A stretch of 64,000 nt of DNA from Companilactobacillus pabuli (GTDB lineage Bacteria; Bacillota; Bacilli; Lactobacillales; Lactobacillaceae), in assembly GCF_014058425.1 (NCBI RefSeq), contig NZ_CP049366.1:930001-994000 (forward strand). Reading direction: 5' to 3'. Below are positions 17,919 through 32,782 of this stretch, piece after piece. Each line of letters starts with the position of its first letter. Within the stretch, counting starts at the first letter, position 1. The notes below the pieces were generated by a model. That model was not told the origin of the DNA. It saw nothing but the letters and a program-made list of their open reading frames with translations, and searched no databases. The position numbers were made by a program, and so were the translations under genes.

Positions 17919-18653
17919 ATGAAAAAACTGAAATACGTCTTACTAATGGTTATTCCGCTATTCTTTTTACTATTGACTGGTTGTTCCAAATTAAGCCTCT
18001 CGACTACTAAAAAAGAATATAGTGCAGATGGATTAGTAGCCATTATTAAGGGTAAGGCCACTAATTATCAAAGACTTACTTATACAGTAGCGGGTGAAAC
18101 AAAAAAAGTTGCTGTCGATGGGGGACACTTTGCTATCTCAGTTCCTGTTTCTGATAAGAACCAAAGAGTTCGTATCAAGGCAGTCAATGGCGATAAAACT
18201 GAAACTAGTTTGGTCAAAGTCAAAAAAGCAACGCCATTAAAGAATTACTTGGAATTTGCGCAAGCTTATAATTATACGATGTTATCAACTGGACAAGCTG
18301 ACGATCAATTACAATTGATTTCTAAAAATGGTATTTCGACGCATAAAAAGAATGATGGAACTAAGTGGTATCTAAATGTTCAAAATAATCAACTAATGGG
18401 AGTTGCAACGCAATTCTCTTATAAAGACTTGAAGTCTAAGACTGGCCAAAAGAATTTTGCGACTGATTTGATGATTGTCTCTAAGTTGTTGGGAGCTGAT
18501 GGCCAAAAGGTTTTGAAGGATTTTGCTAAGCAAACTAAGAATGCTGATAAAAATTCAACTAAAACTTCGATGGACTCAATAAAGTCCAATGGCATCAATT
18601 TTAATATTAATTTAGCTACCAAAGGATTTTATCTTTATATTACTAAGTATTAA
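17919..18653 (+). CDS. Lipoprotein of unknown function
   Basis: 244 aa. A lipoprotein signal peptide (MKKLKYVLLMVIPLFFLLL) ends in the lipobox LTGC, so the mature protein is tethered outside the membrane. Residues 25-90 form a small beta-rich module with repeated short strands, and the rest is mixed and Lys-rich. No enzyme motif is visible. ATG 17913 lies too near the GAGG site, so ATG 17919 with 7-base spacing is preferred. No gene partner is obvious: rpmF ends in its own terminator upstream, and repeat-rich DNA follows. A weak GGAG/CTC hairpin with a T-run at about 18655-18690 may end the transcript. Confidence 0.8.
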   Translation: MKKLKYVLLMVIPLFFLLLTGCSKLSLSTTKKEYSADGLVAIIKGKATNYQRLTYTVAGETKKVAVDGGHFAISVPVSDKNQRVRIKAVNGDKTETSLVKVKKATPLKNYLEFAQAYNYTMLSTGQADDQLQLISKNGISTHKKNDGTKWYLNVQNNQLMGVATQFSYKDLKSKTGQKNFATDLMIVSKLLGADGQKVLKDFAKQTKNADKNSTKTSMDSIKSNGINFNINLATKGFYLYITKY

Positions 18654-18710
18654 AAAGGAGTTTCGTTAGGATTTTCTGGCTCTTTTTTAAATTAAGTTAA
18701 GTTAGTTTAG

Positions 18711-18880
18711 GATTCCGTCCTCCATAGCAAAGAAAATTTGGCTGGAACAATGTGGGCACGACTTGGAGCCTTTGCTAAGATCAGGTTCGGGCAAAGTCTT
18801 CAAGCTCGGCCTTATTCTAAGCAACAAGTTGCTAAGAATAATTTCACATTTGAGCCAATTTTCTTTGCTATTCCGGGCTA
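18711..18880. repeat. Three-branch inverted-repeat element, possible structured RNA or miniature repeat
   Basis: Non-coding. The outer stem pairs ATAGCAAAGAAAATT(T)GGCT (18724-18743) with AGCCAATTTTCTTTGCTAT (18853-18871): 19 pairs with one bulged T. It continues inside as AATGTG (18749-18754) with CACATT (18845-18850). Within it are two hairpins: 18762-18775 with 18791-18804 (13 of 14 pairs) and 18812-18825 with 18828-18841 (13 of 14 pairs). Together they form a three-way junction of about 150 bases. There is no ORF with a ribosome binding site and no clear promoter or poly-T tail. It may be a dispersed genomic repeat. Confidence 0.7.
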
Positions 18881-18918
18881 GAGTGTAGATTTATATTTTA
18901 ATAGAATTAAACAAATAA

Positions 18919-18980
18919 AGCATTTATTCAGATAATGGTTGCGTACATTAATCGACTGTGTCTGAATAGATGCTATTTTT
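18919..18980. repeat. Imperfect inverted repeat with T-run
   Basis: AGCATTTATTCAGA (18919-18932) pairs with TCTGAATAGATGCT (18961-18974) with one G-T pair, around a 28-base interior, and is followed by ATTTTT. It could be a plus-strand terminator with an unusually long loop or the trace of a small mobile repeat. The rest of the 358-base gap before the next gene shows nothing else I can support. Confidence 0.5.
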
Positions 18981-18984
18981 GAGC

Positions 18985-19020
18985 ATAAAAAAAACGCCTA
19001 ATCTGAGTAGATTAAGCGTT
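18985..19020 (-). terminator. Terminator of the YjzD-like gene
   Basis: Stem AACGCCTAATCT (18993-19004) with AGATTAAGCGTT (19009-19020). The one mismatch is a G-U pair only on the minus strand, and the T-run follows on that strand. The stem overlaps the stop codon. Confidence 0.8.
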
Positions 19021-19218
19021 CTTTTCATTATTAGACTCTTTAACAGAGCTATCAAGAATCAATGGAATTACACTGAATATGATAGCAAAGACTATACTAA
19101 CAATAATAGAATAGTTTGTGTTATATGTCTGTTGGTTCAAAGCACCACCGATAAAACCGGCAACTTGTCCCAGCATGATAGACCAGAAAATTACAGCAAC
19201 GTATCTCATTTCTTCCAT
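19012..19218 (-). CDS. YjzD/DUF2929-family small membrane protein
   Basis: 68 aa with two hydrophobic segments (MRYVAVIFWSIMLGQVAGFIG, residues 4-24, shown in part, and SIIVSIVFAIIFSVIPLIL, 38-56). The MRY start, the GQVAGFIG turn and the size agree with the YjzD (DUF2929) family, whose function is not known. Family members usually start at MRY, which would place the start at ATG 19209 rather than 19218; both sites have weak Shine-Dalgarno sequences. It is divergent from dnaE, and its promoter must lie in the short space they share. Confidence 0.75.
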   Translation of the reverse strand: MEEMRYVAVIFWSIMLGQVAGFIGGALNQQTYNTNYSIIVSIVFAIIFSVIPLILDSSVKESNNEKNA

Positions 19219-19280
19219 CTCACTTTCTCAAGTAGTTTAGCACATTTGAGGATTTTTCCCAATAAACTTTCACTTGCTTT

Positions 19281-19289
19281 TGATATAAT
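19281..19289 (+). promoter_or_regulatory. Extended -10 promoter of dnaE
   Basis: TGATATAAT at 19281-19289 is a full extended -10 (TGnTATAAT) 23 bases upstream of the dnaE start. No good -35 box is present, as expected for this class. Confidence 0.55.
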
Positions 19290-19311
19290 TTTAAACAAAG
19301 GGGGCGACAAA

Positions 19312-32642: not shown

Positions 32643-32665
32643 ATAAATATAAAATTAAATAATTG

Positions 32666-32777
32666 GTTTTCAGGGCAGGGTGTAATTCCCGACCGGCGGT
32701 AAAGTCCGCGACCCAGCGCAAGCTGGTTGAATTGGTGCAATTCCAATACCGACAGTAAAGTCTGGATGGAAGAAAAC
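32666..32777 (+). ncRNA. FMN riboswitch aptamer (RFN element)
   Basis: The conserved RFN blocks are present in order: CAGGGCAGGGTG, CCCGACCGGCGGT, AAGTCCGCGACCC, CCGACAGTAAAGTCTGGATG. The closing stem P1 pairs GTTTTC (32666-32671) with GAAAAC (32772-32777). It binds flavin mononucleotide. Confidence 0.96.
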
Positions 32778-32782
32778 AGATT

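Follow-up and report, generated by a model that had tools for sequence, protein, structure and literature searches.

The feature at positions 18652–18990 of the window (the whole stretch of 64,000 nucleotides analysed here) is very probably a right-truncated, one-armed copy of a non-autonomous, ISL3-type MITE that inserts into hairpin loops by the mechanism proposed below. A MITE is an element of an ordinary kind. What is unusual in this family is its insertion into terminators with duplication of the loop, together with an elaborate fold that shows little conservation of stem sequence.

The initial annotation had described a three-way junction at 18711–18880 with more order than expected by chance, and folding of this segment bore this out. 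The predicted energy was −72.1 kcal/mol against −40.4 ± 4.0 kcal/mol for shuffled sequences (z −7.9; none of 200 shuffles as good), and in the predicted shape an internal loop separates a long outer stem from a short inner one, beyond which lie two hairpins. The complementary strand gives the same shape (−61.5 kcal/mol, z −5.5). As had been stated, no ORF of at least 80 aa overlaps this arm; the dnaE ORF comes as near as position 18970 only through mechanical extension of its start. The upstream neighbour is a 246-aa ORF ending at 18653, with a sub-threshold Pfam match only (Big_10), while a DUF2929 ORF on the minus strand (19012–19218) and then the DNA polymerase III alpha gene follow downstream. 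The placement outside known RNA families also holds, as the arm had no match in Rfam 15 at the gathering score, and at E-values up to 10 there were matches at chance level only (best E 1.7 beside the arm and 4.9 on it). The sole gathering-score match in the window is an FMN riboswitch located elsewhere (32662–32781, plus strand, 118.9 bits).

An extent of about 150–170 bases had been claimed; this describes the core fold, but the true feature is larger in both directions. Upstream, at 18652–18706, the left half of a terminator is followed by a terminal inverted repeat, and downstream, 18919–18981 forms a 16-bp hairpin followed by TATTTTT (−26 kcal/mol, z −6.2). The claim that no T-tail is present is therefore accurate for 18711–18880, yet a T-tail lies just outside that range. 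A simple terminator scan of 18500–19300 reported none, and missed this hairpin because it allows loops of 3–8 bases only. The parts of the window copy are as follows:

18652–18669, plus strand: left half of an interrupted intrinsic terminator (AAAAAGGAGTTTCGTTAG); at the orthologous loci L071, L072 and L073 the hairpin is uninterrupted (e.g., AAAAAGGAGCCTCGTTAGAATATTCTAGCGAAACTCCTTTTTT) and no element is present
18670–18677, plus strand: presumed surviving copy of the duplicated loop (GATTTTCT), judged from its position and from the 7–8-bp duplications elsewhere; its partner was lost with the right end
18678–18706, plus strand: left terminal inverted repeat GGCTCTTTTTTAAATTAAGTTAAGTTAGT, with 6 mismatches to the 24-base consensus, aligned with the complete element L051
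18712–18881, plus strand: three-way-junction arm, type A, from fold, covariance-model matches, alignments and covariation
18717–18754, plus strand: 5′ strand of outer stem P1 (GTCC, ATAGCAAAG.., GGCT, the GGAAC loop and a 6-bp inner stem), pairing with 18845–18878
18755–18811, plus strand: hairpin P2, from fold and alignment/covariation
18812–18841, plus strand: hairpin P3, from fold and nested insertions; its loop is itself an insertion target in some other copies
18845–18878, plus strand: 3′ strand of outer stem P1, from fold and alignment/covariation
18919–18981, plus strand: inner terminator-like hairpin with a 16-bp main stem, then TATTTTT; the same module is found in other copies
18984–18990, no strand assigned: approximate right breakpoint, placed against L051, L158 and empty sites; the copy lacks its right repeat, its right target copy and the host terminator's right half

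The window copy thus holds the left half of the terminator, the left repeat, one arm and the inner hairpin, and resembles the one-armed element L051 without its right end. It has neither a right repeat nor a demonstrable target duplication.

The initial annotation had offered a dispersed miniature repeat or a structured RNA, for which one syntenic copy would have spoken. A search of the host genome and its relatives, with a covariance model, gave the many copies expected of a repeat; compensatory changes were also abundant, and the single syntenic copy is refuted by relatives (G003, G012, G023) that have no element at this site. With BLAST, the arm had at least 41 matches in its own genome (a Companilactobacillus), of which 40 covered most of its length at 85–100% (40 of 102 candidates scored). 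Covariance model R1, built from 11 A-type arms, gave at least 112 matches there at E 0.01 (150 of 2481 candidates scored), of which three were dropped as antisense or overlapping repeats of stronger matches. The remaining arms, at least 109 and a few of them partial, fall into 81 elements, namely 28 pairs and 53 solitary arms. All 28 pairs of neighbouring arms less than 1 kb apart are convergent, with gaps of 46–310 nt, and other orientations are absent within 1 kb. A pattern for the terminal repeat, allowing up to three mismatches, was found at 21 places in the same genome vs. none for a reversed control pattern. The reading as a dispersed repeat is confirmed by these 81 elements, their terminal repeats and target duplications, and a likely helper IS.

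Within the genus, DNA similarity to the arm was detected in 13 of 25 genomes, and in none of 16 genomes of other genera. R1 matches were present in 24 of the 25, with at least 100 scored matches in six of them (at most 113 scored in each). Among named genomes, an exact 31-mer was found only in C. futsaii, formosensis, suantsaicola and halodurans (25 stretches). No exact 31-mer match was obtained in viral contigs, and no DNA match in plasmid and phage collections, where own or near records may be absent.

Complete elements are about 313–529 bp long and carry terminal inverted repeats of 20–25 bp (GGTTCTTTCTTAAGTT..), an inner terminator-like hairpin and 7–8-bp target duplications. In the two-armed form (513–529 bp) the left repeat GGTTCTTTCTTAAGTTAGGTTAGT is followed by arm A, an AT-rich spacer and the hairpin GCATCTATTCAGAT..ATCTGAATAGATGCTATTTTT, after which come a second arm of other sequence, inverted, and the inverted repeat. 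Four one-armed elements with both repeats (L004, L051, L053, L122) measure 313–348 bp. Repeat-bounded copies as a whole span 277–529 bp. Their shortness, the absence of a transposase gene, the terminal inverted repeats, the target duplication (in 16 of 28 repeat-bounded pairs) and a partner with the same ends in other genomes are the features of a MITE. A second arm family, X1 (GTTCGGCCCTG..) and X2 (GCAAAAGCCCTGTGATTGG..), forms convergent pairs in the same genome (e.g., L181–L184, L187, L190), several of them close behind stop codons; these pairs showed no recognisable terminal repeat. At two sites (L013 vs. L162 and L040 vs. L163), the relatives' arms are without both inner hairpins and keep the outer stem.

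To describe the target, 28 facing repeat pairs were collected over all loci examined, after repeats of the same flank had been removed; some of these are evidently wrong pairings (e.g., L044, L045, L039 and the outer repeat of L228). Duplication-like flanks were found in 16 pairs, including the candidate helper L227 and the poor case L273, while the other 12, some of them wrong pairings, had no convincing duplication. The flanks outside the duplication are complementary to each other in the 16 pairs, at a mean of 9.94 of 14 positions vs. 6.81 for shuffled partners, with none of 2000 shuffles as high. Pairing covers 8–13 of the 14 stem positions in 12 of these cases, most of which resemble intrinsic terminators, their stems being flanked by A- and T-runs; L145, L155, L176 and L273, at 4–6 of 14, gave no good hairpin. 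Examples are L158, agagtcttca[CATAAAAG]tgaggactct, as well as L122, L051, L021, L041 and L026. The duplication of L024 looks like 12 bp. As a control, nine insertions of the resident 418-aa ISL3 type scored 5.8 of 14 vs. 6.1 for shuffled partners (1742 of 2000 shuffles as high), so the preference for hairpins is general neither to ISL3 nor to these genomes.

The loops of other copies are also used. At L011/L012 the insertion went into the P3 hairpin of a different arm (AGCGAT-TT-ATCGCT; L004 and L011 denote one locus), with the L012 element lying between GATTTATA and GATTTATC and that of L011 between GATTTATC and AATTTATT; L053 reads as a similar case. Empty sites were found for the window copy, where L071, L072 and L073 have an intact terminator and no element, and for L026, where C. 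futsaii (L160) has an uninterrupted terminator. At several other sites a relative has comparable spacing, with flanks about 95% identical, and those inspected include internally deleted copies and copies with arms in swapped order. In the same gap as the window copy, three other genomes carry distant family members, quite different three-way-junction elements (L074, L076, L080), which are read as separate insertions. Divergent gaps hold 8 of the 79 elements with flanks (two of the 81 left out), and of the 25 gaps in the window itself 6 are divergent; with rough ORF-based gene calls, the difference is weak (p 0.10). Identity as a MITE and the mode of targeting are well supported. Insertion into a loop is shown by flanks, empty sites and duplications for the other copies, and we infer it for the window copy.

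Two of 38 ISL3-type loci, both in other species of the genus, have ends that match those of the element: L227 (genome G009) and L228 (G006), whose ends GGTTCTTTCTTAAACTTGGTTA and GGTTCTTTCTCAAGTTTGGTTA, read by eye, agree with the consensus at 19 and 20 of 22 positions. L227 is 1996 bp long and sits in a terminator loop, with the duplication GTTTTGCC (8 of 8) between aaagatgcttaggc and taagcatctttt. L228 (1971 bp, 7-bp duplication CATCTGA) lies in a hairpin with a T-run downstream, and each of the two has, by eye, a strong hairpin just inside the left end. Their proteins, of 609 and 608 aa, reach 241.6 and 226.7 bits against the NCBIfam ISL3 model (cut-off 180) and match NF033550, PF01610 and Zn_ribbon_ISL3. 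By sequence, an ISL3 of the L227/L228 type is the likely helper of the elements. At E 1e-10, matches to the helper protein came from 6 of 36 genus genomes, two of which have it nearly complete, and none from the own genome despite the 81 elements there. The helper's action, like the purpose of the fold, is thus something that we infer, and the elements of this genome may be stranded or may use an enzyme that escaped detection. No arm lies inside L228, and one weak match at L227 falls outside the IS, so the helper does not account for the arms.

A second similar repeat pair surrounds the helper IS in L228 (about 800–830 and 2895–2925), suggesting an element within an element. PF01610 covers the L227/L228 transposase in two separate stretches, which implies a long insert, and residues 348–448 of L228 weakly match an IS21 transposase model. 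Other candidates were rejected. For an IS1182/DUF772 helper, 15 loci were without a matching repeat pair and six copies in G007 have other ends; these six (L104, L108, L111–L114) end in GAGCTTGTGACA and have A-/T-rich flanks that look terminator-like by eye. An autonomous copy between distant arms was sought by eye in two stretches of the own genome, which held no transposase-like ORF. L222, where an arm stands beside a 418-type transposase, was considered as an autonomous element with an arm, and there the IS appears to stop before the arm.

Two other origins of the mobility have to be weighed against the L227-type helper. The resident 418-aa ISL3, of the same transposase family, is present in eight copies in this genome, with perfect 8-bp duplications and ends starting with GGYTCT, and might itself move the element. 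Yet its ends (GGCTCTTTGTCAAATCG / GGTTCTAAACTTTC) have only the first bases in common with the element, and its targets, in the control above, are not hairpins; it was rejected as a direct parent, and we regard it as very unlikely to be the mover. Alternatively, the family could be an older, selfish BOX- or Efar-type repeat that does not go back to a DDE-transposase element, its apparent terminal repeats being halves of host terminators. Indeed, GGTTCTTT also resembles the 3′ half of a terminator, and the left flank of L024 is a complete terminator ending in GGGTTCTTT. However, the repeats reach beyond any terminator half, occur at the 21 places against none for the control and match the ends of two ISs, which makes such an origin highly improbable.

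The fold itself is conserved across the arms. In alignment A5, comprising 121 matches (E up to 1e-8) from 82 chosen sources and aligned to the model, which favours structure, 93.7% of the cells were paired vs. 65.8% after shuffling. Changes on both sides were seen in 61 of 64 pairs, and the covariation score was 0.657 vs. 0.182 for shuffled and 0.05–0.08 for slid pairs. Independent MAFFT alignments of 11 A arms (A2) and 7 B arms (A3) gave the same three-way junction with differing outer-stem sequences. The unpaired motifs are partly conserved: of 46 representatives with less than 70% identity, 34 have GGAAC, 34 UGAG, 40 CUAA and 42 GAGC.

The substitutions within the stems were then compared by type, since a Fisher test of stem vs. 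loop substitution types is confounded by the base composition of the loops. Stem cells included 162 G-U and 218 A-C, with two internal-loop pairs left out, and the 46 representatives gave 62 and 57, respectively. Within near-identical clusters there were 49 unique recent single-side stem events (11 G-U, 26 A-C, 12 other), and 21 of 23 unique double changes were fully compensated. In two other genomes, G-U vs. A-C counts were 7 vs. 15 and 2 vs. 4, with ancestry shared with the own copies and hence not independent. The FMN riboswitch of the same genus (30 sequences) served as a control and gave 7 G-U vs. 1 A-C, five of the seven from one pair; against 162:218 this amounts to a Fisher p of 0.02 for cells that are not independent. 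Private substitutions were rarer in stems (39 per 7692 site-copies) than elsewhere (37 per 2836).

These data bear on what maintains the fold. The initial annotation had taken compensating G-T pairs as a hint of a structured RNA; in its full form, this reading holds that a regulatory or 3′-end-stabilising RNA is selected at each locus as sense-strand RNA and was spread by duplication. The very strong covariation, the partly conserved unpaired core and the scarcity of private substitutions in stems all speak for it, and 71 of 79 elements lie outside divergent gaps, so that most may be transcribed. Compensatory changes are abundant, yet G-U does not exceed A-C. Sense-strand RNA should show an excess of wobble pairs, and its absence, unlike in the FMN control, leaves selection on such RNA unsupported. 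With terminal repeats, target duplications and empty sites marking a mobile element, and no match in Rfam, we consider the structured RNA improbable. Selection might instead act on the RNA of both strands, on that of the antisense strand, in which an A-C is read as G-U, or on the DNA; self-correction of the palindrome is possible too. In the last case, covariation would come from a mutational process without selection on folding, either template switching between hairpin halves (quasi-palindrome correction) or gene conversion between copies. In agreement with this, compensated double changes are many beside just 49 single-side changes, wobble intermediates are rare, the internal-loop GGAAC is missing from 12 of the 46 representatives, and the two arm types stand in opposite order at an orthologous site (L042, own position 84942, vs. 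L145), as if inverted in place. Such a process should, however, erase an asymmetric internal loop, and GGAAC is kept in the other 34 representatives; moreover, loops change more than stems. We therefore hold it to be a real but lesser possibility. Tentatively, the likeliest role of the three-way junction is at the DNA level, as a hairpin or cruciform, and not as sense-strand RNA.

For the loop-targeting MITE we propose the following course. An ISL3-family transposase acting in trans would recognise terminal repeats of the GGTTCTTTCTTAAGTT type, as the matching ends of the two ISs in other species suggest. It would insert the element into a hairpin loop, mostly that of an intrinsic terminator at a gene end and sometimes the P3 loop of another copy, duplicating 7–8 bp of the loop. 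The inner terminator-like hairpin, whose anatomy is observed, would plausibly replace the cut terminator and spare the host gene; intrinsic-terminator loops would be a safe harbour, in which no gene is broken and the element's own hairpin makes good the lost one. Comparison of copies shows that they decay by losing an arm or an end. The three-way junction may persist because folding is selected in the mobile lineage, because the palindrome halves are copied from one another, or for both reasons. A further step is conceivable but doubtful: the ISL3-type transposase might target an extruded DNA hairpin and join to its loop, so that only the loop is duplicated, with the three-way-junction DNA fold recognised by its shape.

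Likenesses and differences to known systems can be drawn on several sides. With ISL3-family ISs and MITEs the elements share the class of helper transposase, GGYTCT-type ends and a 7–8-bp duplication; they differ in their hairpin-loop target, which the resident 418-aa ISL3 does not use, in a helper of 608–609 aa and in an interior unrelated to the IS. In the accessible text of PMC5678879, the targets of the IS1272/IS1182 group are likewise inverted repeats able to form a stem-loop, and IS1272 replaces stem-loops and makes no duplication; an alternative is drawn there as "pathway c", with joining at the loop and only the loop duplicated. Unlike IS1272, the present elements keep the stem and duplicate the loop, with both half-stems and two loop copies in 12 of 28 pairs and in the nested case, which fits "pathway c" (PMC5678879, same text) and not stem-loop replacement. 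The IS1182-type elements of the genus (G007) have ends that differ from the element's. Pneumococcal BOX, RUP and SPRITE are modular intergenic repeats, one kind of them terminator-like, that insert into one another (PMC3049150; PMC10969869), and in the accessible portions of these sources no three-way junction is described for them. Likewise, the portions at hand of PMC10969869, PMC2267715 and PMC9208149 treat bacterial MITEs, stem-loop families and IS positions without mention of the present element, and that of PMC9208149 gives ISL3 positions between genes with nothing on hairpin targets. A literature search, from which subscription journals mostly fell outside coverage, returned nothing that treats the present element or an ISL3 targeting terminators or hairpins.

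The Efar repeats of Enterococcus faecalis are structured repeats of about 170 bp at gene ends, and the likeness, compared by description only, lies in these two properties. Integron attC sites conserve structure and not sequence at the DNA level; unlike them, the present element has inverted ends and target duplications, and no integrase or cassette was seen. If recognition by shape were true, the elements would both seek and supply folded single-stranded DNA, like attC sites but with a DDE transposase. ISL3-type insertion, where it duplicates the loop, would be a natural example of a DDE transposase that chooses its targets by structure. The arms present one fold with largely free stem sequence and at least 100 scored matches in 6 of 25 genus genomes. 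This set lets one ask whether mobile DNA is selected for shape at the DNA or RNA level, or whether its palindromes correct themselves.

Beyond the genus, an order-wide search gave matches in 4 of 198 genomes, namely the own genome and three from two other genera; the filters of this search were stricter, and two further genus genomes gave no match with them. The related arms in the two other genera of the order (G132, G125, G193) are those of L135, L136, L137, L139–L141 and L143, of which L136 and L140 have 63–64% G+C.
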